From: an uncultured Prevotellaceae bacterium
Lineage (GTDB): Bacteria > Bacteroidota > Bacteroidia > Bacteroidales > Bacteroidaceae
DNA length: 64,000 nucleotides
NCBI GenBank assembly: GCA_902778535.1
Contig: CACYYG010000034.1
Coordinates: forward strand, 17,332 to 81,331
Direction: 5' to 3'
Shown here piece after piece: positions 22,571 to 44,940 of this stretch. A program made the translations under genes and the position numbers. Each line of letters begins with the position of its first letter. Within the stretch, counting starts at the first letter, position 1. The notes under the pieces were generated by a model. It made no database searches. It was not told the DNA's origin and worked only from the letters and a program-made list of their open reading frames with translations.

Positions 22571-22694
22571 CGGAGTTCAGAGGTGAGTGGTGAGAGGTGA
22601 GAGAATACCTCTTCCGCTTCCTTTTTATACTTCTGCTCTGGGCTTGCCAGCATTTCTTCAGAAACTGAAGCAAGCAAGCTTGCGGAAGTTGAGT
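22571..22694. repeat. Right arm of the ATPase cassette inverted repeat
   Basis: This 124-bp arm is identical (inverse complement) to 20369-20519 without its 27-bp insertion. Read on the minus strand it opens with ATG and encodes 30 residues (MLASPEQKYKKEAEEVFSH…); the left arm encodes the same peptide start on the plus strand. Confidence 0.95.
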
Positions 22695-22791
22695 TACTTA
22701 AAACATCTCGCAGAACCTCAAAAAAATGCAGGAAAAAGTGTTTTGACGGAAAAAAGCGGGGAGAAGCGTGCTGCAAGTCGGGAAAAATGTG

Positions 22792-22799
22792 TATTTTTG
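22792..22799 (+). promoter_or_regulatory. -7 box of the recX promoter
   Basis: TATTTTTG lies 15 bp before the first recX ATG. No good -33 element is seen. Confidence 0.55.
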
Positions 22800-22814
22800 C
22801 GGCAAAATGTACTG

Positions 22815-23306
22815 ATGATGGAGAAGAAGCAGGCAATGACAGGTCAGCAGGCGTATGTGAAGCTGACGGCGCTATGCGCCCGCAGCGAGCACTGCCAGCA
22901 TGATATGCTGGAGAAGATGCGGCAGTGGGGCGTGAGCGAGGAGGAGCAGGCCGAGGTGATGCAGCGCCTTGTAGGCGAGCGCTATGTCGACGATGGCCGT
23001 TTCGCCCGTGCCTTCGTCCTCGACAAAGTGCGCTACAACAAATGGGGACGACGCAAGGTGGAGCAGGCGCTGTGGATGAAGCATATCGACAAGGCCGTCG
23101 CCACTGAAGCGCTCGACGCCGTCGATGACAGCGAGTACCTCGACATCCTCCGCCCCCTGCTGAAGCAGAAGCGCAAGAGCACGAAGGCTCAGAGCGAATA
23201 CGAACTGAACAGGAAGCTCGTCAGGTTTGCCATCAGCCGCGGCTTCACGATGGACATCATCAAGCAGTGCATTGACGCAGCCGATGAGGACGAGTTTCTG
23301 GACTAA
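22815..23306 (+). CDS. recX: Regulatory protein RecX
   Basis: RecX modulates RecA filaments. The three-helix repeats typical of RecX are visible: AYVKLTALCARSEHCQHDMLEKMRQWGVS, then VMQRLVGERYVDDGRFARAFVLDK (signature RYVDDGRFA), then KWGRRKVEQALWMKHID. Length is about 163 residues. Of the tandem ATGs at 22815 and 22818 either may start it; an in-frame extension upstream runs into the inverted repeat and promoter and is not coding. It overlaps comF by 23 bp. Confidence 0.9.
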   Translation: MMEKKQAMTGQQAYVKLTALCARSEHCQHDMLEKMRQWGVSEEEQAEVMQRLVGERYVDDGRFARAFVLDKVRYNKWGRRKVEQALWMKHIDKAVATEALDAVDDSEYLDILRPLLKQKRKSTKAQSEYELNRKLVRFAISRGFTMDIIKQCIDAADEDEFLD

Positions 23307-23982
23307 GCTCCTCGATGTCATATCGCCACGCTCCTGCGGCGTCTGCGGCCGGCGGCTGTCGGCCAACGAGCGGGCGCTATGCGGTGTCTGCCATCTGCAC
23401 CTGCCGCTGACGCATTATGAGCAAAAGCCTTTCGACAATCCCTTGGCGCGCCTCTTCTGGGGACAGTTTCCCATTGAGCGCGCCGCTGCACTGTTCTTCT
23501 ACGAGCCGCAGGCACCCGTCAGCCGCCTCATCTATGACATGAAGTATCACCACATGCCCGAATTGGCACGTGACATGAGCATCGTTGCTGCCCGGCATTT
23601 TACCGCCGCCGGCTTCTTCAACGGCATCGACGCACTCGTGCCCATGCCCATCACGTGGCGCCGGCAATGGCACAGGGGCTACAACCAAAGCTATGAGATG
23701 GCACAAGGCATCAGCGAGGTAACAGGTCTCCCTATATATAATGATGTGGTGAAGCGCGTCAGCTTCAAGCAGAGCCAGACACGCCAGCATGCCTGGGAGC
23801 GACTGCGCAACGTCGACGATGCCTTCCGCCTCGTCCGTCCTGAAAAGATCGGCGGCAAGCATCTCCTTCTCATCGACGACATCGTCACCACCGGCGCCAC
23901 CGTCACCGCCTGTGCCCGTGAGCTGGCCAAGGCGCCTGACGTCAGCATCAGCATCATCTCCTTAGGGCTCACGAAGACGTAG
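23284..23982 (+). CDS. comF: ComF family protein (phosphoribosyltransferase fold)
   Basis: ComF proteins have a zinc-finger N-terminus and a type I phosphoribosyltransferase domain and assist DNA uptake or processing in competent bacteria; the precise reaction is unknown. Seen here are CGVCGR…CGVCH (residues ~17-37), the motif HRGYNQSYEMA, RQHAWERLRNV and the PRPP-binding LLIDDIVTTGAT near the C-terminus. The start MRTSFWTKLLDVISPRSC at 23284 overlaps the recX end; the longer frame from 23227 reads through recX in another phase. Length is about 232. Confidence 0.92.
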   Translation: MRTSFWTKLLDVISPRSCGVCGRRLSANERALCGVCHLHLPLTHYEQKPFDNPLARLFWGQFPIERAAALFFYEPQAPVSRLIYDMKYHHMPELARDMSIVAARHFTAAGFFNGIDALVPMPITWRRQWHRGYNQSYEMAQGISEVTGLPIYNDVVKRVSFKQSQTRQHAWERLRNVDDAFRLVRPEKIGGKHLLLIDDIVTTGATVTACARELAKAPDVSISIISLGLTKT

Positions 23983-25046: not shown

Positions 25047-25580
25047 ATGAGAATTATTACCGGCAAATACAAGGGCAGACATTTCGAGATACCGCGCTCG
25101 TTCAAGGCACGGCCTACTACTGACTTTGCCAAGGAGAACATTTTCAACGTGCTCATGGGCTATATTGATTTCGACGGCACACGGGCGCTCGACCTCTTTG
25201 CCGGCACCGGCAGCATCACCCTCGAACTGCTCTCACGCGGATGCAGTCAGGTGGTGAGCGTCGAGCTGGACCGCGACCATCACCGCTTCATCCAACAATG
25301 CATCGCCAAGCTACAGGAAAAAAACAATGTTCAATGTCTTCGCGCCGATGTCTTCCGCTTTATAAAGGGCAGTCATCAGCAGTTTGACTTCATCTTTGCC
25401 GACCCGCCCTACGCCCTGAAGGAACTTCCACAGATTCCCGATCTTGTCTTCGCCCACAACCTCCTTGCTCCCGACGGCATCTTCGTATTTGAGCACGGCA
25501 AGGACAACGACTTCTCCGGGCATCCCCACTTCGTGGAACACCGCAGCTATGGCAGCGTGAACTTCACGCTGTTCCGCTAA
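25047..25580 (+). CDS. rsmD: 16S rRNA (guanine(966)-N2)-methyltransferase
   Basis: RsmD methylates G966 of 16S rRNA in the assembled small subunit. The N-terminal MRIITGKYKGRHFEIP and ARPTTDFAKENIFNVL, the SAM motif DLFAGTGSITLELLSRG and catalytic DPPY are present. Length 177 is typical. It overlaps the stop of the minus-strand PAP2 gene by 4 bp (convergent). Confidence 0.94.
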   Translation: MRIITGKYKGRHFEIPRSFKARPTTDFAKENIFNVLMGYIDFDGTRALDLFAGTGSITLELLSRGCSQVVSVELDRDHHRFIQQCIAKLQEKNNVQCLRADVFRFIKGSHQQFDFIFADPPYALKELPQIPDLVFAHNLLAPDGIFVFEHGKDNDFSGHPHFVEHRSYGSVNFTLFR

Positions 25581-26572
25581 CCTTTTCCCTTAAAGAAATA
25601 TCGGTTGTAAAACCAGCGCAGGAGGAAATACATTGCTAAGCCTGCGAAGAATCCTCCTATGGCGTCGATGGCATAGTGCGCCTGAATGTAGAACGTGCCG
25701 AAGAACAACAATACGGCAAAGGGCAGGAAGATGTAGAACAGCCAACGGTTGCGGCTCTCCCAAGCGAGACACATCACCACCACCGTTACACTCACATGAC
25801 TGCTGGGGAAGGCTGCCGTGGGGCGCTCGCCAGCATCATGGGTGAATTCCAGAATGTGATAGAAGAATCCGTCGGTGTATCCGGGGATGGGCAGCGAGAA
25901 CTGAGGGTCGAGCACATCAAACTCTAACTCTCCGAAATAGTTCTGCAGGTCGGGATAGATGCCGGCAGCAATATTTTCCAGACCGGCGGCCTTGAAATAG
26001 AACTGCGGACCGGCCACGGGCAGGAAGACGAAAATGACGTAGGAGAGGAAGAATGAAGCAAGGATGATGAATGTGGTGCGCTCGAACTTTTCATATCGCC
26101 AGATGAAATAGAACAACGAGACGCAGACGAACAACGGATAGTAGCTCACATAGCCCATCGTCACCAGTTCGCTGAAGACAGGCCAGTGGCACACCTCGCT
26201 GAAGACCAGTGACGGCTGACAGCCGAAGAGTCCTTCTTCCCATCCGGCAAAGAGATGGTCAAGATTGGGGAACACTCGGTTCAGCTCATAGGTGTCGGGA
26301 TACCAGAGGCCAAGCAGCGACATCTGACCCGCAATGCGCAGCAAGATGGTCAGGCGACAGGGCTTCAGGCGATACAAGCCCCAAAGGGCAAAGGTGACGA
26401 CAAGAGCCTGAATACGAGTTGATGCCATCAGCCCGATATTGGGCAGACGGCCGCTGTTCACCACAATAAACAATGAAGTGGCCAGCAAATAGACCATCAT
26501 CACCCATTCTACAGGCAGTAATCCCTTGCGGGGATTTTCATCGATTGCAATCAGTTGCCTATAGAACTTCAT
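25577..26572 (-). CDS. PAP2-superfamily membrane protein, AUR1/inositol-phosphoceramide-synthase-like
   Basis: This 331-residue polytopic protein belongs to the PAP2 superfamily branch (PAP2_3) that includes AUR1, which moves a phospho-headgroup from a glycerolipid to ceramide. The catalytic motifs are GERPTAAFPSSHVSV (His in the PSSH motif, about residue 245) and QAHYAIDAIGG (His/Asp, about 292). It is the last gene of the phosphonate operon and overlaps the upstream UPF0104 gene by 14 bp, so a role in the same pathway is likely. I infer either transfer of aminoethylphosphonate to ceramide or removal of phosphate from a lipid intermediate; sequence alone cannot decide. Confidence 0.82.
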   Translation of the reverse strand: MKFYRQLIAIDENPRKGLLPVEWVMMVYLLATSLFIVVNSGRLPNIGLMASTRIQALVVTFALWGLYRLKPCRLTILLRIAGQMSLLGLWYPDTYELNRVFPNLDHLFAGWEEGLFGCQPSLVFSEVCHWPVFSELVTMGYVSYYPLFVCVSLFYFIWRYEKFERTTFIILASFFLSYVIFVFLPVAGPQFYFKAAGLENIAAGIYPDLQNYFGELEFDVLDPQFSLPIPGYTDGFFYHILEFTHDAGERPTAAFPSSHVSVTVVVMCLAWESRNRWLFYIFLPFAVLLFFGTFYIQAHYAIDAIGGFFAGLAMYFLLRWFYNRYFFKGKG

Positions 26573-27641
26573 CCTTTTTCTGCTTCATGTATTCTGAGGG
26601 TTCTGTACCGCCAATCTTCATCAGTATCAAACCAATGACAATCCAGATGATTTCACGCACACGACAGATGATGCTCTCGAAGATGCCTACCGCCGGCTTC
26701 AGACCCAGAGCAGCGGTGGAAATGACAATGCCGCCTTCCTGAACACCGAGTTGCATGGGCAGAAAACCGATGATGTTGGCCAGAAAACTGGTGAACGCCA
26801 GAATGAGGATGGAGTGGAGGTAGGTAAGTGCCAACCCCGACCATCCGCCACCACAGTCGATGCCGAAGAGCAGCAGCATGAAGAAGAACTCTGAACTCTG
26901 CACCACACGAGAAAAATACTCAAGTATCAGCGCAGAATAGAATGACCGCTTGTTCTGCTTATGAAGATTGGCTATCTGACGGTCAATCTTATGCAGTGTT
27001 CCTGAGTGGCGTTCCAGGAAACGGCGGCTCCAGCCTTTCAGTCCAGGAATTTTCCCCGCCAAACGGATGCCCTTGACTGCCAGTCCGTGCTTATAGCCCT
27101 TGGCGAAGAAATAGAAAGCCAAGAGGAACAGCACGAAGATGAGAGCAAGGATGACGCCTACCATCGTAGTCATGGGCAGATCGCCCACAGCCACCAATGC
27201 CAAATAGATGAAGATGGATATAAACCAGAACCAGAAGTGGGCAAAGATGTGCATCATGGCATAGAGGATGACCGACGATGCAGCATGATCCTGACTGATG
27301 TTTTTCGAGAGCTCAATGATGCGGTAGGGCTCGCCGCCAAGACCGCCCACAGGCGTGGAGTAGTTGAGTGCATAGCCAGTGATGGTCAGACGGTAGATGC
27401 GCCAGTTGCTGACGTGCTCGTCAGGACTTTTCACACCGTCGATGACACACTTCCACGACCAGGCATTGATGGCATAGATAATAATCCAGACACCGACAAT
27501 TGGAATGAGCCAATAGCCTGCATGACAGAGATGGTCCCATAGCTCGGCAAAGCTGACGTCGAAGGTGAACAGCATCACCACCACGGTTATTACGCCAAGT
27601 AGGAAGAACAGATTGTTGATTCTTTGCTTAGTCCACTTCAT
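26559..27641 (-). CDS. UPF0104 / lysylphosphatidylglycerol-synthase-TM-like flippase-type membrane protein
   Basis: This 360-residue integral membrane protein has about eight helices and the family signature GGLGGEPYRI (~residue 100) plus QLGVQEGG near the C-terminus. It resembles the membrane half of MprF, which flips lipids, without the aminoacyl-transfer half. Within the operon it lies between the CDP-alcohol phosphatidyltransferase homologue and the PAP2 gene. A role in moving the finished phosphonolipid or an intermediate across the inner membrane is inferred from family and context. Confidence 0.82.
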   Translation of the reverse strand: MKWTKQRINNLFFLLGVITVVVMLFTFDVSFAELWDHLCHAGYWLIPIVGVWIIIYAINAWSWKCVIDGVKSPDEHVSNWRIYRLTITGYALNYSTPVGGLGGEPYRIIELSKNISQDHAASSVILYAMMHIFAHFWFWFISIFIYLALVAVGDLPMTTMVGVILALIFVLFLLAFYFFAKGYKHGLAVKGIRLAGKIPGLKGWSRRFLERHSGTLHKIDRQIANLHKQNKRSFYSALILEYFSRVVQSSEFFFMLLLFGIDCGGGWSGLALTYLHSILILAFTSFLANIIGFLPMQLGVQEGGIVISTAALGLKPAVGIFESIICRVREIIWIVIGLILMKIGGTEPSEYMKQKKDEVL

Positions 27642-27686
27642 CGGGAGGGAAGTTGAGAAGTTGAGGAGATGTGGAGATGAGTAGTG
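27642..27686 (-). repeat. Low-complexity purine/pyrimidine tract in the operon gap
   Basis: The 45-bp gap between the CDP-alcohol phosphatidyltransferase homologue and the UPF0104 gene is made of GTTGAG(A/G)AG-type repeats, the same sort of short tandem sequence found elsewhere in the window. Confidence 0.5.
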
Positions 27687-28670
27687 TTATTCAATGCTGT
27701 CAGCAATACGGCTGCAGAAAGCCTCATGCCGGCGGATGGTATAGCGGGCAATGAGGTTGACCACAATGATTTCAAAGATGAAAATAGCCACGGGAATGTC
27801 GAGCAGACAGAACAACAACTGATAGGATGTGCGGAAGTTGAACACAAGCAGGAACACATAATTCAATGTAGGCTTGGAGTAGCGACAGAACTCTTCTCGT
27901 ACCGACTCAGGGAAGTTAGCAGTATCGCCATAGCGCTCACGCAGTCGGGCCATGAGACGCTGGAACTGCGGCGTTACGCGCTCCTGCTGATAAGTGTAGT
28001 CGACATACGACCGCTGTATGAGACGCTGCCAGAAATGACCTTTGGCCGGTATCTGGTCGTAGAGTTCCTGCTGGCGCTTCACATTGTCGAGTTCACTGCC
28101 TTTCTCGCCCTTCAGGAAGAAGAGGTGGGTCTGTATATAATAGTCGGCAATGCGCTGTTGGGGAGCGATACCGACCAGGCCCGAGACAGTTGCCAAGATG
28201 AAAACCACAATGGTGGCAATGGTCACCGTGGTGGCCGTGTCACTGAGTCCAAGTAGATTGAACTCGATGTCATGGTGCACATAGAAACGATATACCAGCG
28301 CAATGTAGATGGGACCGTACCAGGCATAGCCTGCCAGTCCGTCGAGGATGCGTCCCAGTGCACTCTTCTTGCCGGTCATGCGGGCCAGCTGTCCGTCGGT
28401 ATTGTCAAGGATATCTGCAATGAAGAGCAGCAGGATGGCTATCAGATTGTAGAACAGTCCCCATTTACCCTCATAGTAGAAGCAGCCGTGTGCAAAGAAG
28501 AAGGCGCTGGCAGCACCGATAATCATGGAGGCGATGGTGACGGTATTGGGATGAATGCCCAGCTTGGCAAAGAAGCATGCCCAATAATAGCTGAACGGAC
28601 GCACAATATGATAGTCCACCCAGTCTTCCGTGTCGGCTGACTTCAGGGTTGCATATACTTTTTCATTCAT
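27687..28670 (-). CDS. CDP-alcohol phosphatidyltransferase family protein with altered catalytic motif
   Basis: Members join a CDP-activated alcohol or headgroup to an acceptor in the membrane. The motif here is DNTDGQLAR (8 residues) G RIL D GLA G, around residues 88-112. The canonical form is D-x2-D-G-x2-A-R-x8-G-x3-D-x3-D; the eighth position, normally the Asp thought to activate the acceptor hydroxyl, is Gly. About six helices frame it, and a long soluble insertion (residues ~165-265, DNVKRQQELYDQIP…) is unusual. Encoded directly after AEP transaminase, it is the best candidate for putting aminoethylphosphonate from CMP-AEP on a lipid. The 327-residue length exceeds the roughly 200 of simple family members. 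Confidence 0.85.
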   Translation of the reverse strand: MNEKVYATLKSADTEDWVDYHIVRPFSYYWACFFAKLGIHPNTVTIASMIIGAASAFFFAHGCFYYEGKWGLFYNLIAILLLFIADILDNTDGQLARMTGKKSALGRILDGLAGYAWYGPIYIALVYRFYVHHDIEFNLLGLSDTATTVTIATIVVFILATVSGLVGIAPQQRIADYYIQTHLFFLKGEKGSELDNVKRQQELYDQIPAKGHFWQRLIQRSYVDYTYQQERVTPQFQRLMARLRERYGDTANFPESVREEFCRYSKPTLNYVFLLVFNFRTSYQLLFCLLDIPVAIFIFEIIVVNLIARYTIRRHEAFCSRIADSIE

Positions 28671-28708
28671 TGTCCTGTTGTTTCGTTACGACGTTATCCG
28701 CAATAACG

Positions 28709-29827
28709 TTATTTCAACTTAATCTCAAAATGATCCAGTGCCTGCTGCATCACCACGAAGAAATCGTCGATATCCTTTGAGTCGATGGCACCCAGCGCAC
28801 AGAGGCGGAAGGTGTTCGTGGTGCTGATTTTGCCGGGATAAATGGTGAAGCCACGGTCGTAGCAATAGTCATGCACTTTCTCGAAACTCCAGTTGGGATC
28901 ATCGGGATATTTCACTGAAACCACCAGTCCCGACTCAATCTTCGGGTCGATGACGGTCTCGAAGCCCAGCTCCTTCACTCCCCTGCGGATGGCTTCATAG
29001 ACACGGCGATGGCGTGCAAACTTCGCCGTTTCACCTTCGGCAAAATATTCTTTCAGCGCCTGAATAGTTGCGTAGATGGTCTGTACGGGCGGTGTGAAAT
29101 GCATCTCGCCAGTCTTCTCAAAGTATTCGTATTGCAGGTAAAGGTTGCAATAGTAAGAACGTGTAGGATAGTTCTTCGATGCCTCGATGATGGCCTTGCG
29201 GCCGATGACGAATGAGAGGCCCGACATGGCCATAAGTCCCTTTTGTGCCGAAGCCATGCAGAAGTCGACGTTGTCTTTCACCACATCAAGCGGAATCATG
29301 CCCAGCGTAGAAGTGGTGTCGCTGACGAAGATAGCTCCGTGGCTGTGAGCCAAAGCGCCAATCTCGCGTATGGGATTCAGTACGCCAGTGCCCGTCTCAT
29401 GGTGACAGCAGTACACCACAGCCACATCGGGATTGTCGTTCAGCGTCTGCTCCACGGCTTTCAGGTCGGGCTGTTCGTAGACACTCGATTTGAGGTTGAT
29501 GTGGGGGATATGGTACATCTGACACACCTCTACGGCCCTTGTGTTGTAGGCTCCGTTGTTTACCACGAGGATTTTCTTACCCTCGGGCACAAGCGAATTG
29601 ATGCACACATCGATATTGATGGTTCCGGAACCGCAGAAGAGCACCGATGTATATTCATCCTCCGGAGCATGTACGACTTTCAGCAAGTCGCTGCGCAGTC
29701 CTTTCATCAGTCCGGCAAACTCCTTCTCTCGCGGACAAATATCGGGTACGACCTGTGCCATTTTCACCGTGTCGGTCGTTGTGGCAGGTCCGGGATTCAG
29801 CAAAACATTTCTTTTAATAGTTTCCAT
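28709..29827 (-). CDS. phnW: 2-aminoethylphosphonate--pyruvate transaminase
   Basis: PhnW is a PLP enzyme interconverting phosphonoacetaldehyde plus alanine and 2-aminoethylphosphonate plus pyruvate. The N-terminal LLNPGPATTTDTVK, the PLP-site SDTTSTLG and Lys in SAQKGLMAMSG (~residue 194), and the C-terminal FTIYPGKI are typical. Length 372 matches the family. In this operon, with PEP mutase and phosphonopyruvate decarboxylase, it works in the biosynthetic direction. In phosphonate-degrading clusters it would sit beside phnX, which is absent here. Confidence 0.93.
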   Translation of the reverse strand: METIKRNVLLNPGPATTTDTVKMAQVVPDICPREKEFAGLMKGLRSDLLKVVHAPEDEYTSVLFCGSGTINIDVCINSLVPEGKKILVVNNGAYNTRAVEVCQMYHIPHINLKSSVYEQPDLKAVEQTLNDNPDVAVVYCCHHETGTGVLNPIREIGALAHSHGAIFVSDTTSTLGMIPLDVVKDNVDFCMASAQKGLMAMSGLSFVIGRKAIIEASKNYPTRSYYCNLYLQYEYFEKTGEMHFTPPVQTIYATIQALKEYFAEGETAKFARHRRVYEAIRRGVKELGFETVIDPKIESGLVVSVKYPDDPNWSFEKVHDYCYDRGFTIYPGKISTTNTFRLCALGAIDSKDIDDFFVVMQQALDHFEIKLK

Positions 29828-29846
29828 ATCTGTTTTTTATTTTCTT

Positions 29847-30569
29847 TCAAATTAAAAACGGCAACACGTGTTCTTCGGCGTATGCCAGATCATCAGGATC
29901 ATCTATCTCGTACCACTTCAGTCCGGCCACGTTCAGCACATATACTTTGCGCACCGACTGCGACATTGTCAGCAGCTCGTACTCATAGCCCAGCTTGGGC
30001 TGGTGGTCGACTTTTGCAGCATAGTCTTCACACATCAGTTGGTAGAACGAGGCCGACAGCTTGTGAATGCCCACCAGTTCGCCCTTGGCATCAAGGTCGG
30101 TCTCCACCGTGGAGCAGCGTGTCAGCCGATGGTCGTTGTCATACTCCACATAATACTGATCCTGAAACTTCGTTACTGGTGTGATCAGCATCACGTCAGG
30201 CTCGTCACACGCTAAGAGCGACGTGATGGCTTTTTTCTCAAAGACGAGATCCGACTCCAACAGCAGAAAGTCGTCCTGCCCGATGACCTCGCGACAGTTG
30301 TACAGGGTGTACATGCTGTTGGTCTCGGCATAGCGCGGACTGAACACACATTCTATCTGTGGATAGATTTCTTTAAGAGCTTCGTAACGCTCCTTGTGGT
30401 AGCCGGTGCCGATGATGATGCGGTTGATGCCACAGGCAATAAGCGTCTGGATGCTGCGCTCCACCATTGAGATGCCGCCGCACTCGACGAAGCCCTTGGG
30501 AATATTCTCTGTATACTGGCCAAAACGGGTACCCATACCCGCTGCCATAATGACTGCCGTAGTAACCAT
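29847..30569 (-). CDS. Nucleotidyltransferase (LicC/PntC-like), probable CTP:2-AEP cytidylyltransferase
   Basis: This 240-residue NTP-transferase has the family's GMGTRFG…PKGF nucleotide-binding loop, SMYTLYNCRE, LLLESDLVFE (metal-binding Asp) and the C-terminal WYEIDDPDDLAYAE. Closest recognisable relatives are choline-phosphate cytidylyltransferases (LicC) and PntC, which activates AEP with CTP. It lies between ppd and phnW with 6- and 19-bp gaps. CMP-AEP formation is therefore the natural inference; a sugar-phosphate substrate is less likely in this context. Confidence 0.82.
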   Translation of the reverse strand: MVTTAVIMAAGMGTRFGQYTENIPKGFVECGGISMVERSIQTLIACGINRIIIGTGYHKERYEALKEIYPQIECVFSPRYAETNSMYTLYNCREVIGQDDFLLLESDLVFEKKAITSLLACDEPDVMLITPVTKFQDQYYVEYDNDHRLTRCSTVETDLDAKGELVGIHKLSASFYQLMCEDYAAKVDHQPKLGYEYELLTMSQSVRKVYVLNVAGLKWYEIDDPDDLAYAEEHVLPFLI

Positions 30570-30575
30570 AGTCTG

Positions 30576-31715
30576 CTAATGCTTGAGGAAGTCCATCAGG
30601 GCTTCTTTGTTCTGTATCGGCGTGGTAGTCGGGCGTCCAAGGTCTTTCCTGTTGCCCTTCTTTACGCGAATCTCGATCAGCACAGGGCCTTCGAAGGAAG
30701 GCAGCTGCAAGGCGGATGATGCAAGCAGGCTTTCCAGTTCATCCTTTGAGCTGACGCTGTACACTTGTTTGTAGCCCATAGCCTTGGCAATGGCGGGCAT
30801 ATCGACGAGCAGGCCCACGGTGGGCTGGCCTCCTACGGAGTCGTGGGCGCCGTTGTTGAAAACCACATGCACGTAGTTCTTGGGCTGCATGCTGGCCGTG
30901 ATGGCCATGTTGCCCATGTGCATAATGGCGGCACCGTCGCCGTCAAAACAGTACACGGGACGCGACGGCTGCTGCAGCGCGATGCCCAGTGCTATCTGTG
31001 ACGCATGGCCCATAGAGCCCACAGTAAGGAAGTCGTGACCGTGGCCCTGGCCTTTACGCTCGCGTATCTCGAAGAGTTCACGGGAAATCATTCCCGTGGT
31101 CGACACGACGGCGGCATTAGCAGGCAGTTTCTCCACCACGGTTTCGATGGCTTCTTCGCGGGCAAGCGTCAGTGTGCTCTCAGCCTTGTTCTTCAGCGTA
31201 TAGGCGTCGAAGGTGTCTTTCTCAATGACCAAGGCATAACACTCGCTGGTTTTCAGCATATAGTCTACAGCCGTCTTTATCTGCTTGGCTGCAGCCTCCT
31301 CATCCTTGCTCAGCACAGTGTAGTTGATGCCCATCGTGTTAAGCAGGCCAGTAGTCACTTTTCCCTGTTTGACATGCTGTGGCTCATCATGCACGCCGGG
31401 GCGTCCTCTCCAGCCTATCAGCAGCAGCACGGGGATGTTGTACACCTCCTTGTCGGTCAGCGATGCCAACGGGTTGATGATGTTGCCTTCGCCCGAGTTC
31501 TGCATATAGACCACGGGAATGTGCCCTGTGGCCAGATGATAGCCGGCCGCGATGCCCATAGCGCCGCCCTCATTGGCTGCAATGATATTCTGCTCATGCG
31601 GCAGGGTGTCAGTAATATAGGCACAGATATTTTTCAGCAGCGAGTCGGGCACGCCGGCAAAGAAGTCGATGCCGTTCTCCTTCAGTTGTTCAACAAAAAA
31701 AGCTGGTCTAAGCAT
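30576..31715 (-). CDS. ppd: Phosphonopyruvate decarboxylase
   Basis: This thiamine-diphosphate enzyme decarboxylates phosphonopyruvate to phosphonoacetaldehyde, making the unfavourable PEP mutase step irreversible. N-terminal FFAGVPDSLLK, the catalytic Glu region AANEGGAMGIAAGYHLATG, QNSGEGN, WRGRPGVHDEPQH and the ThDP motif GDGAAIMHMGNMA (~residue 255) are visible. Length 379 is typical. It starts 5 bp after pepM. Sulfopyruvate decarboxylase is the nearest alternative and is excluded by context. Confidence 0.93.
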   Translation of the reverse strand: MLRPAFFVEQLKENGIDFFAGVPDSLLKNICAYITDTLPHEQNIIAANEGGAMGIAAGYHLATGHIPVVYMQNSGEGNIINPLASLTDKEVYNIPVLLLIGWRGRPGVHDEPQHVKQGKVTTGLLNTMGINYTVLSKDEEAAAKQIKTAVDYMLKTSECYALVIEKDTFDAYTLKNKAESTLTLAREEAIETVVEKLPANAAVVSTTGMISRELFEIRERKGQGHGHDFLTVGSMGHASQIALGIALQQPSRPVYCFDGDGAAIMHMGNMAITASMQPKNYVHVVFNNGAHDSVGGQPTVGLLVDMPAIAKAMGYKQVYSVSSKDELESLLASSALQLPSFEGPVLIEIRVKKGNRKDLGRPTTTPIQNKEALMDFLKH

Positions 31716-31720
31716 AACAA

Positions 31721-33040
31721 TTAAGCCTTTTTAGTCCCCGGAATCAGGTTCAGAATCTGCTTGATGGGCATGCAATACTGTTCTGAGGCCTCCAGACTGC
31801 GGCTGTTCTGCAGGATGCTCTCGGCACATTTCACCATAGCAGGATAGGCCGAGCGCAGCATGTGGTTGGCATAGATAACGATATTGATGCCCCACGAAGC
31901 CAGCTCCTCCTCGGTAAACTGGTTGTAGGTGGTAGGCACAGCCACGATGGGTGTGTGTTTGTCTTTCTCGCGGAAGCGCAGGCAGAACTCCTTGATGTCG
32001 TCGCCGCTCTTGTTTTTCGAGTGAATCATAACGCCGTCGGCACCGGCTGCCACGTAGGCATGGCAGCGCTCCAGGGCATCGTCGACCGGTTTGCCGGCAA
32101 TGAGACTCTCACAACGCGAGATGATCATAAAGTCGCGTGTTATCTGTGCGTTTTTGCCAGCCTTTATCTTATTGCAGAACCCGTCGATGGTATCCTGTGT
32201 CTGCACGGCATCGGTGCCGAAAAGCGAGTTCTGCTTCAGTCCCACTTTGTCTTCAATGATGACAGCCGAGATGCCCAGACGCTCCAATGTGCGCACAGTG
32301 AACACGAAATGCTCCACCTTGCCGCCTGTGTCGCCGTCGTAGATGACTGGCTTCGTTGTCACCTCCAGCGTGTCGTTCAGGTCGTGCAGACGGGTAGTGA
32401 GGTCAACAGCCTCGATGTCGGGCTTGCCCTTCGACGTAGAATCGGTGAGCGACGAGGCCCACATGCCGTCGAACTCGCGATGCTGTCCGTTCACCTCTAC
32501 CGATGTGTGCTCGGCAATGAGCCCCGTCAGACCGTTGTGCGACTCGAGGATGCGCACAATTGGCTTGGCAGTTATGAGTCGGCGAAGCGAGGCCAGGCGT
32601 GCCTGTGGCGTAACGCCCAGCGAGTCGATTTCCTGTTTCAGCCCAGAGGCCGAGATGCCTTTGGTGTAGGGAATCTCGATGACTTCGCCGCCCAGCGACT
32701 CCATTGTCTTGAACACTTCGTCGCGGATGTACTTGTCGGGGCCGTATTGCCAGTCATCGCCGTGAATGATATAGTCGGGCTTGTATTTCAGCAGATTGGG
32801 CACATAGCTCCATTCGTCTTGCGGGACAATGCTTGCCACGCCCCTGATGTTTTCGATGACGTTCTTGCGCTGTTCATAAGTCAGATATGGCAGTCGTTTG
32901 TGGGTGGCTATGGCCTTGTCGGTAAAGAGACCGATCATTACATTACCATACTTGGCACCCTCGTTGATGATATTGATAAGTCCGGGGTGCATAATGTCGC
33001 CTATCATTCCCAGATAGACCGTTTTCTGTGTTTTTTCCAT
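31721..33040 (-). CDS. pepM: Phosphoenolpyruvate mutase with N-terminal nucleotidyltransferase-like domain
   Basis: PEP mutase makes the C-P bond, converting PEP to phosphonopyruvate. The signature EDKVGLKQNS (EDKx5NS) is present around residue 262, with YDGDTGG and SRCESLIAG. Residues ~1-135 form a cytidylyltransferase-like domain (GMIGDIMHPGLINI … YEQRKNVIENI … GDDWQYG … KGISASGLK) like that in many PepM proteins, but HxGH is HPGL, so the second catalytic His is missing. I start the gene at MEKTQKTVYLG (33040), after the promoter; an in-frame extension crosses it. First gene of the operon. Confidence 0.93.
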   Translation of the reverse strand: MEKTQKTVYLGMIGDIMHPGLINIINEGAKYGNVMIGLFTDKAIATHKRLPYLTYEQRKNVIENIRGVASIVPQDEWSYVPNLLKYKPDYIIHGDDWQYGPDKYIRDEVFKTMESLGGEVIEIPYTKGISASGLKQEIDSLGVTPQARLASLRRLITAKPIVRILESHNGLTGLIAEHTSVEVNGQHREFDGMWASSLTDSTSKGKPDIEAVDLTTRLHDLNDTLEVTTKPVIYDGDTGGKVEHFVFTVRTLERLGISAVIIEDKVGLKQNSLFGTDAVQTQDTIDGFCNKIKAGKNAQITRDFMIISRCESLIAGKPVDDALERCHAYVAAGADGVMIHSKNKSGDDIKEFCLRFREKDKHTPIVAVPTTYNQFTEEELASWGINIVIYANHMLRSAYPAMVKCAESILQNSRSLEASEQYCMPIKQILNLIPGTKKA

Positions 33041-33085
33041 TACTGAAAATGTATCCAAAAACTTGATGGTTTTTATTTCACGGTG

Positions 33086-33093
33086 CAAAATTA
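33086..33093 (-). promoter_or_regulatory. -7 box of the phosphonate operon promoter
   Basis: On the minus strand TAATTTTG lies 45 bp before the pepM ATG and after the epimerase stop, giving the seven-gene operon its own start. No clear -33 match. Confidence 0.65.
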
Positions 33094-33135: not shown

Positions 33136-34161
33136 TTACAGCCAACCGTTCTCCTTATACCACTGAATGGTCAGCTTAGTGCCCTCCTTCAGTTGATAAT
33201 GCGGCTCATATCCCAGCTCGCGGCGGGCAGGCTCGATGTCGCAGCGCCAGTTGCGTTGCTTCAGAATGTGATACTTGTCGTTGTTCAGCGCCGAAATCTT
33301 GCCTGTCAGATGTCCCCACTTGTCGCCCAGCCAGGTGATGACACGCAGCACCCAGATGGGTGCTTTTATGCGTATCCACCACGGATGGCCCAGTTCTTCG
33401 CGGATGAGGTCGCTGAAGGTGGTCGACTGGTAGACCTCGCCGTCGGAGAGGAAGTATTTGCGACCCGTCTGACCCTTCTCGCAGGCAAGGAAGACGGCCT
33501 GCACCACGTCCTGCACATAGACGAAGGTGATGTCCTGACGCTTGAAGCCCACAGCAAAGTCGCTGTGCTGCTTGATGCTCTTTGCCATGAGGAAATAGTC
33601 GCGCTCACGCGGACCATAGACGCCGGTAGGCCTTAACACCACAAAGGGGAACAGCGAAGCACCCTTTTCCTGCGCCTCGTTGTTGAGGCTGTCCAGCCAC
33701 TGCTCAGCCTCCAGTTTGCTCTTGCCGTAGGCCGTATTGGGCTGCGGTGTGTCGTCTTCGCGAATCTCCGTGTAGGGCTGCTGCTCGTGGATGGCACCGA
33801 AGATGCTGAGCGAACTGATGTAGACAAAGCGTTTCAGCGGCATCTTCAGCGCCTGAAGTGCGCGCACCAGATTCTTCGTACCCTCGGTGTTGATGCGGAA
33901 GAAGTCTTCCGTGTTCAGACACTTCGTCACGCCGGCGGCATGCACCACGTAGTCAAACTCATGCCCCTTCAGCTGGCGCTCCAAGTCCTCCTGACTCGAG
34001 AGGTTCAGCTCGATGAAGTGGATGCGCTCGTCGGTGAGAAACTGCTTCGAACTGCTCTTGCGCATGGCAGCCCATGTGTCATAGCCTTGGCGCAATGCTT
34101 CCTCGACAATAAAGGAGCCGATGAAGCCGCTGGCGCCGGTCACTAATATCTTCATTTCCAT
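33136..34161 (-). CDS. NAD(P)-dependent epimerase/dehydratase-family oxidoreductase (extended SDR)
   Basis: This 341-residue Rossmann-fold enzyme has GASGFIGS (nucleotide binding), catalytic Ser in YISSLSIFG, and YGKSK (YxxxK) plus the substrate-loop LRPTGVYGPRE. The start MEMKILVTG at 34161 fits the promoter; a longer frame crosses it. It lies 95 bp upstream of pepM on the same strand but has its own promoter, and the operon has another, so linkage is loose. Relatives include nucleotide-sugar epimerases, 3-beta-hydroxysteroid-like dehydrogenases and the CerR-type ceramide/ketosphinganine reductases; a role in sphingolipid synthesis beside a phosphonolipid cluster is possible but speculative. 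Confidence 0.8.
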   Translation of the reverse strand: MEMKILVTGASGFIGSFIVEEALRQGYDTWAAMRKSSSKQFLTDERIHFIELNLSSQEDLERQLKGHEFDYVVHAAGVTKCLNTEDFFRINTEGTKNLVRALQALKMPLKRFVYISSLSIFGAIHEQQPYTEIREDDTPQPNTAYGKSKLEAEQWLDSLNNEAQEKGASLFPFVVLRPTGVYGPRERDYFLMAKSIKQHSDFAVGFKRQDITFVYVQDVVQAVFLACEKGQTGRKYFLSDGEVYQSTTFSDLIREELGHPWWIRIKAPIWVLRVITWLGDKWGHLTGKISALNNDKYHILKQRNWRCDIEPARRELGYEPHYQLKEGTKLTIQWYKENGWL

Positions 34162-43386: not shown

Positions 43387-44940
43387 ATGAAGAAGATTCT
43401 TATGTTGGTCGCAGCCGCCATGATGGCGGCAATGAATGTGAAGGCGCAGGAGGAGGTGACTCCTTATTTCACAAATGATGAATTACCCCGCCTCATCCAC
43501 TGCCTACCCGCTCCCCCCGATACCGTGGGAGCAGAGTTCTATTACGACGTCATGCAATATATGTGGGGCAAGGAACAGCGCCTCGACCCTGAGCGTGCGG
43601 CCATTGCCCGCAGGGATGCCGTGATGACGTATGAAAACCTGTTGGCCGAGTTCAATGTGCCTTTCGGTCTCACGATCTCGAAGACCGAAACGCCCGAGAT
43701 TTGGAAACTCATGGAGACCAGCCTGGAGACTGTCAACCAGATGCGTGTGGAACCTAAAAAGTTCTACGCCCGCCGCCGTCCCTTTGTGCGCTTCCACGAA
43801 CACATCCTGACCTATCAGGCCGAGGAGGACGAAGAAGAAGTGGCCCGTGGAGGAAGCTATCCCTCTGGTCATACGTTCCGTGGCTGGGCCGCTGCCCTCC
43901 TGCTCTCTGAGATAGCTCCCAGTCGTGCCGACACCATCCTGGCACGCGGCTATATGTACGGCGAGAGTCGTGTCATCGTGGGAGCCCACTGGCAGAGCGA
44001 CGTCGATGCCGCCCGTCTGGGCGCTTCTATCGGCTACATGCGCCTGCAGACCAGTGCCGACTTCCAGGAGCAGATGAAGAAGGCACAGGCAGAGTATGCC
44101 GAAAAGACAGGGGTGGCCATCGTGCCCAGTGCCTCCGACAATATGGAGCGCGAGGGCTGCGACTACTACTACCTGCGCAGCGAGATGCCCGATATGCGCA
44201 AGTTCCTGCCTGCTCCTCCCGACACCATCGGCAATAAGTTCAGCCGCGACATCATGCGCTATATGTGGGGTAAGACCATGCGCCTGAATGAAGAGCGCGC
44301 CGACATTGCCAAGCGCGATGCTGTCTACGGCGTTGACTGCATCTGCCAGGAGTTCAGCGAGCCCTTCGGCCTGCCTTTGTCAAAGGAAGGAACGCCCGAA
44401 ATCTATAAGCTGCTGCTCGATGCCACCTCCACTTGCGACAGCATCTGCTACGAGCCGAAGAAATTCTACATGCGTAAACGTCCGTTTATGCGTATGCAGG
44501 AACAGTCATTAACGCCCGAATATGAAGAAGAGCTGTCGCACAACGGTTCCTATCCCTCGGGGCACACGCTACTGGGCTGGTCATCAGGTTTGCTGCTTTC
44601 TGAGATCAATCCCGCCAATGCCGACACGCTAATGGCTCGCGGCCACATGTACGGCGAGAGTCGCGTCATCGTGGGAGCCCACTGGCAGAGCGACGTCGAT
44701 GCCGCACGCCTGGCCGCCTGCGCTGCCTACGGCAAGATACACAACAGTGCCCGCTTCCAAGAGCAGATGAAGAAGGCACAGGAGGAGTTTGCCCGTCTGA
44801 GTGGTCAGGCTGTCGGCATCCGTCCCGTGACGGTTCCTGTACAGACAAGGTCTGACCGCGTCTACCGACTTGACGGCACACCCGCAACGGAGGAAACCCG
44901 TGGTATCGTGATTGAGGAAGGACAGAAGAGATTCAAGTAG
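43387..44940 (+). CDS. Secreted acid phosphatase, two tandem PAP2 domains
   Basis: This periplasmic class A-type acid phosphatase is a fusion of two homologous PAP2 domains (residues ~30-235 and ~270-480). Each contains the full triad: [10 protein letters not shown] / GSYPSGHTF / [14 protein letters not shown] in the first, [10 protein letters not shown] / GSYPSGHTL / [14 protein letters not shown] in the second. A signal peptide ([21 protein letters not shown]) is present. The domains are very alike, pointing to a fairly recent duplication. Substrate is not predictable, though non-specific phosphomonoester hydrolysis is typical. Confidence 0.9.

Follow-up and report, generated by a model that had tools for sequence, protein, structure and literature searches.

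For most phosphonate gene clusters, the predicted products are surface glycans or lipids, and their biosynthesis has been described as almost wholly uncharted (Rice et al., PMC6697681). Among the sphingolipids of Bacteroidota, phosphoinositol (PI) dihydroceramide has been confirmed in two species linked to an alternative, Bacteroides vulgatus-type inositol cluster (Heaver et al., PMC9246714), and inositol phosphorylceramide (IPC) of B. thetaiotaomicron is reported to need an AUR1-type PAP2 enzyme (PMC9246714, PMC8791184). Concerning the ceramide backbone, the ceramide reductase CerR has been likened to NDUFA9 and, in Caulobacter, is located in the periplasm, and bCerS has been called an acyltransferase (PMC11087976). 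The window analysed here is a stretch of 64,000 nucleotides from an uncultured Prevotellaceae bacterium (assembly GCA_902778535.1, contig CACYYG010000034.1). Its minus strand carries seven open reading frames (ORFs) at positions 25577-33040, coding for phosphoenolpyruvate (PEP) mutase (PepM), phosphonopyruvate decarboxylase (Ppd), a nucleotidyltransferase (NTP), 2-aminoethylphosphonate (AEP) transaminase (AEPT), a CDP-alcohol phosphotransferase (CDP-AP), a UPF0104 membrane protein, and a PAP2-family membrane protein (PAP2). From PepM to PAP2, the intergenic spacing amounts to 5, 6, 19, 38, and 45 bases, and the last two genes overlap by 14 bases; all seven closely spaced genes seen in an earlier reading of the sequence alone were hence confirmed. 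A further gene on the same strand, coding for an extended short-chain dehydrogenase/reductase (SDR; EPI, 33136-34161; PF01370), lies just upstream of PepM, beyond the range considered in that reading, and is part of the gene set. To judge from the genes and their surroundings in relatives, the operon probably attaches AEP to a membrane lipid, and the chance that ceramide-AEP is a main product is slightly better than even.

Families were assigned by profile scans, making use of the curated cut-offs of NCBIfam (TIGR and NF models) and of Pfam. The predicted synthesis of AEP from PEP is well supported, because PepM (31721-33040; TIGR02320, 407 bits, cut-off 319.55), Ppd (30576-31715; TIGR03297, 514.2 bits, cut-off 312.5), and AEPT (AepZ/PhnW, 28709-29827; TIGR03301, 470.2 bits, cut-off 360.8) each score above their curated cut-off, in agreement with the route read earlier into the first, second, and fourth genes. 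In addition, PepM contains the EDKX5NS motif (EDKVGLKQNS). The three enzymes would convert PEP into phosphonopyruvate, phosphonoacetaldehyde, and AEP, respectively. PepM further carries an N-terminal cytidylyltransferase domain (PF01467), which was overlooked in the sequence-only reading. Its nearest structure in the PDB is the PEP-mutase-fused cytidylyltransferase 5x3d (E 9.8e-44), presumably Fom1. Both histidines of the nucleotide-binding motif HxGH are needed for cytidylyltransferase catalysis; the motif reads HPGL in the window versus HPGH in 5x3d, and the fused domain is probably inactive. The motif was surveyed in 25 pepM loci with wide flanks (L119-L130, L191-L196, L003-L008, and L015, to the exclusion of the 30 short-flank loci L132-L161; L-numbers denote fetched genomic loci and C-numbers contigs of the window's own genome, G000). 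Its second histidine is lost in all nine loci with AEPT and kept in all 12 that have a gene for an iron alcohol dehydrogenase, four loci (L128, L130, L191, and L195) being left unclassed. The iron alcohol dehydrogenases share 33-58% identity with the L119 protein used as the query, and their loci may represent a 2-hydroxyethylphosphonate branch. With HxGH lost from the fused domain, the separate NTP is probably the working AEP-activating enzyme.

This NTP (29847-30569; PF12804) best matches, over its whole length, the CMP-AEP-bound PntC-AEPT structure of Treponema denticola (6pd1; E 9.7e-43). Its Glu105 and Glu196 align with Glu104 and Glu196 of the T. denticola PntC (Tde-PntC), which sit at the AEP amine and where LicC has Asp (Rice et al., PMC6697681). 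The earlier claim of LicC/PntC-like activation was borne out by this nearest match and by the retention of both AEP-contacting Glu residues. Among 18 NTPs, hand-picked and thus non-random, residue 105 is Glu in all six PntC-like proteins (from five AEP operons, including that of the window, and from L117), Asp in all seven encoded near HisC/CobD-like genes, and Thr in all five of inositol clusters, to which the window NTP is 17-20% identical. The assignment of the NTP as a PntC-type enzyme, which would convert AEP into CMP-AEP, is supported. The operons of L004 and L005 are without an NTP; activation of AEP by the fused domain, an idea raised by these two loci, was considered less likely, as HxGH is lost in both and the L005 genome encodes a PntC (73%) outside the operon. 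Elsewhere in the window's own genome, contig C7 encodes an NTP-CobD-like fusion of 610 amino acids (L118:5294-7126).

The CDP-AP (27687-28670; PF01066) is the proposed CMP-AEP:lipid transferase, as suggested by its PDB matches, clade, and neighbourhoods. UPF0104 (26559-27641; PF03706, LPG_synthase_TM), a proposed lipid translocator with relatives in inositol, HisC/CobD-type, and AEP clusters, follows it in all nine AEP loci, the window included. A crude scan predicted six, six, and four hydrophobic segments in CDP-AP, UPF0104, and PAP2, respectively, and none of the three matched a PHROGs profile. Relatives of the transferase are found in 75 of the 295 order-sample genomes at E 1e-3, the weakest probably being other CDP-AP enzymes, and in 314 of the 399 family-sample genomes at E 1e-20. 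AEP-module genes stand beside it in eight of 14 loci from named genomes, namely pepM in seven (L003-L008 and L015), plus L014, whose contig ends inside AEPT. Comparison of the flanks distinguished three or four contexts, formed by the window, L004, and L005; by L006, L007, L008, and L015, with a common downstream gene; by L003; and by L014. All nine AEP-linked transferases fall into a single clade (100/100) of a 45-row tree. Nearer relatives of the window transferase (57-68% identity) occur with a HisC/CobD-family pyridoxal-phosphate (PLP) enzyme, UPF0104, and mostly a LicC-like NTP. Many distant ones occur in clusters with an NTP, a protein with a weak RimK-type match, CDP-AP, HAD, MIPS, and sometimes UPF0104, and the alternative inositol cluster has matching gene content (Heaver et al. 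2022, PMC9246714). The HisC/CobD-type clusters may make an amino-alcohol phosphate headgroup. A swap from such a headgroup to its phosphonate isostere AEP is supported, because the AEP-linked clade nests among the transferases associated with HisC/CobD-like and LicC-like genes. The headgroup swap suggested previously thus gained ground, although its derivation from a B. thetaiotaomicron-type region did not, the relatives lying in B. vulgatus-type and HisC/CobD plus LicC-like clusters. Indeed, the CDP-AP reached only 23.9 bits against the BT_1523 model (cut-off 350) and is not a BT_1523 orthologue, and none of four BT_1522-type proteins was matched by PAP2 in blastp at E 1e-3. Only UPF0104 has a relative (46%) that adjoins a BT_1522 orthologue, in one of four BT-like loci fetched (L238).

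Five loci (L009, L012, L177, L178, and L180) combine a HisC/CobD-like PLP enzyme, a LicC-like NTP, and CDP-AP, with UPF0104 in most, and look like an amino-alcohol-phosphate lipid cluster. Near the transferases of L011 and L049, ORFs resembling a beta-ketoacyl synthase and an oxidoreductase and a carrier-protein-sized ORF were named from sequence. The window's own genome encodes a second, distant transferase (36% identity; contig C10), and within the surrounding 19.5 kb (L047) neither MIPS nor HAD was matched.

PAP2 (25577-26572; PF14378, PAP2_3; motifs AFPSSHV and AHYAID) is the proposed ceramide headgroup transferase, and EPI the candidate ceramide reductase. In all ten loci L166-L175, EPI stands directly upstream of PAP2. 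The two are separated by six genes (pepM to UPF0104) in the window and by five in L004 and L005, where the NTP is absent. In L003, the AEP module directly precedes EPI-PAP2; in L014, UPF0104-PAP2 is seen with EPI out of view. Furthermore, EPI-PAP2 is divergent beside the transferase in L187, with no pepM match within 8.5 kb, and 14 of the 15 genomes with these transferases encode PAP2, pepM being adjacent or not. In a survey of 29 order-sample PAP2-family loci (own locus excluded, many proteins just 30-38% identical), flanks of 1.5 kb contained EPI in 11, a GNAT protein in 16, and at least one of both in 25. By comparison, 52 transferase loci (mostly 8-20 kb) held GNAT in five and EPI in four, all four with PAP2 in the same locus. 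In L246 (4482-8688) and L247 (1754-5940), the genes follow the order serine palmitoyltransferase (SPT)-GNAT-EPI-PAP2, overlapping or nearly touching and with SPT above its cut-off; both loci are of distant Bacteroidales, so that this linkage is theirs and not that of the window's genome. Such operons lend added support to the ceramide target proposed earlier. A single run in L248 (5787-19141) and L249 (2320-15808) contains SPT, two GNAT relatives, a HisC/CobD-like enzyme, two NTPs, two CDP-APs (the transferase included), UPF0104, HAD, and MIPS, without a PAP2 match, and looks like a two-headgroup sphingolipid super-cluster. In the window's own genome, SPT is encoded on contig C17 (NF047600, 662 bits, cut-off 640), with SPT structures 8guh and 3a2b as best PDB matches. 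Each of the 15 transferase-bearing genomes has a TIGR01825 relative (367-387 bits), identity as SPT being confirmed just for that of the own genome.

As for EPI itself, the protein is 54-56% identical across three genera of the family, in line with the identity above 50% reported for CerS and CerR of P. copri (PMC10865984). In the PDB, the best 60 of its 121 matches are mostly nucleotide-sugar epimerases or dehydratases, NDUFA9 not being among these 60. The GNAT protein may correspond to bCerS and EPI to CerR, and EPI-PAP2, which here flanks the AEP module, is an old pair, probably of the ceramide pathway. This pairing is the strongest indication that AEP goes onto a lipid. The 3-ketosphinganine reductase BT_0972, found via its similarity to TSC10 and having conserved TSC10 residues (PMC9278070), was set aside as a counterpart of EPI, which is of the extended epimerase-like type; this was decided without a sequence comparison. 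Two side observations concern the ceramide genes. In L057 (2009-9050), an SPT-like gene, its product 36% identical to the own SPT, and a GNAT relative come after an inositol-type transferase cluster. The PAP2 of the L246 and L247 operons is a candidate Bacteroidota ceramide headgroup enzyme, perhaps a phosphoethanolamine (PE) dihydroceramide synthase.

The label AUR1-like, given earlier to PAP2, proved weak. The profile of the window PAP2 family matched AUR1 (a PDB chain of that title, presumably the yeast protein) at E 0.011 and was nearest in the PDB to the lipid phosphatase 5jki (E 2.3e-4), whereas BT_1522 orthologues, taken from L238-L241 where they adjoin a BT_1523-type synthase (that of L241 being below the cut-off), matched AUR1 at E 1.7e-19. 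The identification of PAP2 as AUR1 itself is not supported by these values. The distant PAP2 relatives L222 and L209 weakly bridge to the BT_1522 type (E 2.6e-6 to 2.9e-4). Moreover, hhalign relates the window PAP2 family to the BT_1522 orthologues with a probability of 94%, both being PF14378 proteins with PS-x-H and HYxxD in common. It is possible that the window PAP2 acts like AUR1.

In the pathway proposed from these data, CDP-AP would transfer the phosphonyl group of AEP from CMP to a lipid alcohol, either diacylglycerol or ceramide, UPF0104 would translocate the product or its partner lipid, and EPI and PAP2 would supply reduced ceramide. If diacylglycerol is the first acceptor, PAP2 would exchange the headgroup onto ceramide, yielding ceramide-AEP. 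A ceramide end product is favoured because the AEP module lies between EPI and PAP2; the lipid acceptor, the order of the steps, and the functions of UPF0104, of EPI as CerR, and of PAP2 as transferase are inferred. A more tentative scheme sees EPI-PAP2 as a ceramide reductase and the Bacteroidota PE-dihydroceramide synthase, to which rumen Prevotella would have added a Kennedy-type transferase and the AEP genes, so that PAP2 might also make ceramide-AEP, an isosteric carbon-phosphorus (C-P) lipid.

Several observations weigh against the synthesis of ceramide-AEP by this operon, and the likelihoods of the alternatives overlap with that of this reading, two of them sharing its first steps. The last Asp of the superfamily motif DX2DGX2ARX8GX3DX3D is Gly in the window CDP-AP, which still scores above the PF01066 cut-off, and is replaced by Gly or Ser in all 37 transferases checked; this motif is the one quoted for the search of Heaver et al. 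(PMC9246714), so the B. vulgatus enzyme (Ptrans) may differ. The best PDB match of the transferase family profile is AF2299 (7.1e-15), followed by cholinephosphotransferase (4e-6). The PntC orthologue was not found in the L004 assembly (best match 24%), which, at 2.1 Mb, is possibly incomplete. A crude scan predicted no hydrophobic segment in EPI, versus the periplasmic Caulobacter CerR, and the genes spt, bcerS, and cerR, often clustered, are reported not to be close neighbours in known Bacteroidota producers (PMC11334938). SPT scored above its cut-off in 16 of 33 PAP2-positive genomes and in 11 of 47 PAP2-negative ones, the latter a non-random set taken from the top of the list (Fisher p 0.03, with no correction for kinship). 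PAP2 is not specific to AEP, as it is also present in the absence of pepM. In addition, the genomes that contain L006, L008, and L015 have EPI-PAP2 elsewhere, and a PAP2 match was not found in that of L007. The findings in these four genomes are also in favour of an alternative in which AEP is placed only onto diacylglycerol, as a phosphono analogue of phosphatidylethanolamine, with PAP2 and EPI serving ordinary sphingolipids and being merely co-transcribed. This explanation, which coincides with the preferred one up to the transferase step, agrees with the closest solved relatives of the single transferase, which are diacylglycerol cholinephosphotransferases (8ero, E 1.4e-4), and with the presence of EPI-PAP2 in genomes without pepM beside the transferase. 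It is nevertheless unlikely, as EPI-PAP2 encloses the module or lies at its border in several lineages, a pepM-less transferase adjoins this pair in L187, and transferase clusters form one run with SPT in L248 and L249. The same two SPT-linked clusters, lacking a PAP2 match, point to a variant of the ceramide reading, in which the transferase would act directly on ceramide with CMP-AEP and PAP2 would have another task, for instance that of a ceramide-phosphate phosphatase. Insect ceramide phosphoethanolamine synthase (CPES) uses CDP-ethanolamine directly on ceramide in this way. The lipid phosphatase nearest to the PAP2 profile and the PI-dihydroceramide of two alternative-cluster species (PMC9246714) fit this variant as well. 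It was held possible but doubtful, given the AUR1-type PAP2 enzyme needed for IPC in B. thetaiotaomicron.

The remaining two explanations take the lipid genes to be unrelated to AEP. Decoration of a capsule or other glycan with CMP-AEP, the alternative put forward in the sequence-only reading, has precedents in the AEP on the B. fragilis capsule and in the LicD-like genes of pnt clusters (PMC6697681), and LicD-like genes occur in seven of the 18 wide-flank pepM loci outside the Prevotella module set. Similarly, the L005 genome has a 73% PntC copy elsewhere that adjoins two LicD-like genes (L117:6655-9094), and may transfer AEP onto a glycan as well. In the window, however, a scan of 12 proteins encoded in the flanks (one of them without any match, and ORFs such as that at 22587-23982 being outside the scan) revealed no LicD or glycosyltransferase family, and UPF0104 follows the transferase in every AEP locus, making glycan decoration improbable. 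Finally, the pepM module may have landed beside lipid genes by chance. Above the cut-off, pepM is present in 13 of the 295 order-sample and 61 of the 399 family-sample genomes, and it lies on a contig other than that of the transferase in at least 21 other family-sample genomes, which are all those with the place of the transferase listed. Consequently, the association is a feature of one transferase lineage and not of pepM in general. Retrieval of the loci L003-L016 started from the transferase, which is hence present in them by construction; the AEP genes are not. The expected co-occurrence of AEP-module genes with the membrane genes was encountered in eight of 14 transferase loci (with pepM in seven) and in several contexts, but failed to extend to those other pepM genomes. 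Chance adjacency is nonetheless highly improbable in view of nine loci, three or four contexts, a single transferase clade, and tight gaps.

With respect to the surroundings of the operon, expression from one promoter, as assumed earlier, was not borne out. The promoter evidence consists of just TAATTTTG at 33093-33086 on the minus strand, presumably a -7-like box of Bacteroides promoters, without a clear -33 element, and a sigma-70 promoter scan gave nine sites versus 8.7 expected, hence no excess. Also, the start of PepM is most likely the ATG at 33040 rather than one near 33093. At the other end, the gene coding for RsmD converges on PAP2, with DUF3822 beyond it. No tRNA was found in the window. 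A second PAP2-family protein (PF01569; 517 amino acids) is encoded at 43387-44940, away from the operon.

The 14 transferase relatives in named genomes belong to Prevotella, Prevotellaceae, or Bacteroidaceae, and the five that name a gut site come from rumen, reticulum, or abomasum; based on these assemblies and sites, the host is probably a rumen Prevotella-like bacterium. The value of AEP as a marker of rumen protozoa has been questioned, since AEP also occurs in bacteria and in feed (Ling and Buttery 1978, cited in PMC4659874). If the proposal is true, the AEP reported in rumen bacteria would have a defined bacterial source in Prevotella carrying this operon. A description of an AEP-lipid operon of this type was not found in the literature searched, whose coverage excluded most subscription journals and bioRxiv preprints. 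The operon proposes a gene for every step of a bacterial AEP-lipid pathway, tied to likely ceramide genes, and makes AEP-lipid synthesis testable. Furthermore, PAP2 is a candidate PE-dihydroceramide synthase, an enzyme for which, according to the account of Sartorio et al. (PMC8791184), a search with the Drosophila enzyme as query gave no match in B. thetaiotaomicron.

Compared with known systems, the operon partly resembles the alternative inositol cluster (PMC9246714) in having an NTP of the PF12804 kind (17-20% identical to five inositol-cluster NTPs), a CDP-AP of the same family (about 35-42%), and UPF0104, which is often present there. This likeness is one of cluster content, not of the B. 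vulgatus proteins themselves. The operon has PepM, Ppd, and AEPT instead of MIPS and HAD, and PAP2 where HAD is proposed to act; indeed, MIPS of the own genome is on another contig (C23), and no HAD is part of the operon. Closer in sequence are the clusters of HisC/CobD, LicC-like, CDP-AP, and UPF0104 genes of Bacteroidaceae, on which no paper was found in the literature searched, with a transferase 57-68% and a UPF0104 65-73% identical to those of the window; they differ in having no AEP genes and an NTP that is 23-28% identical, with Asp and not Glu at position 105. The B. thetaiotaomicron IPC cluster (BT_1521-1526) has a UPF0104 relative and the logic of passing a headgroup to a phospholipid and then to ceramide in common with the window, whose CDP-AP and PAP2 are, however, of other families and whose operon contains neither MIPS nor PgpA. 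As to the ceramide genes spt-bcerS-cerR, the similarity lies in the SPT-GNAT-SDR-PAP2 operons that hold relatives of EPI-PAP2, whereas SPT of the window's genome is located apart on contig C17. Lastly, the NTP resembles the PntC-type enzyme (Rice et al. 2019, PMC6697681) in its whole-length match to 6pd1 and in both AEP-contacting Glu residues, but unlike Tde-PntC it is free-standing beside AEPT instead of fused to it, and its surroundings are lipid genes.

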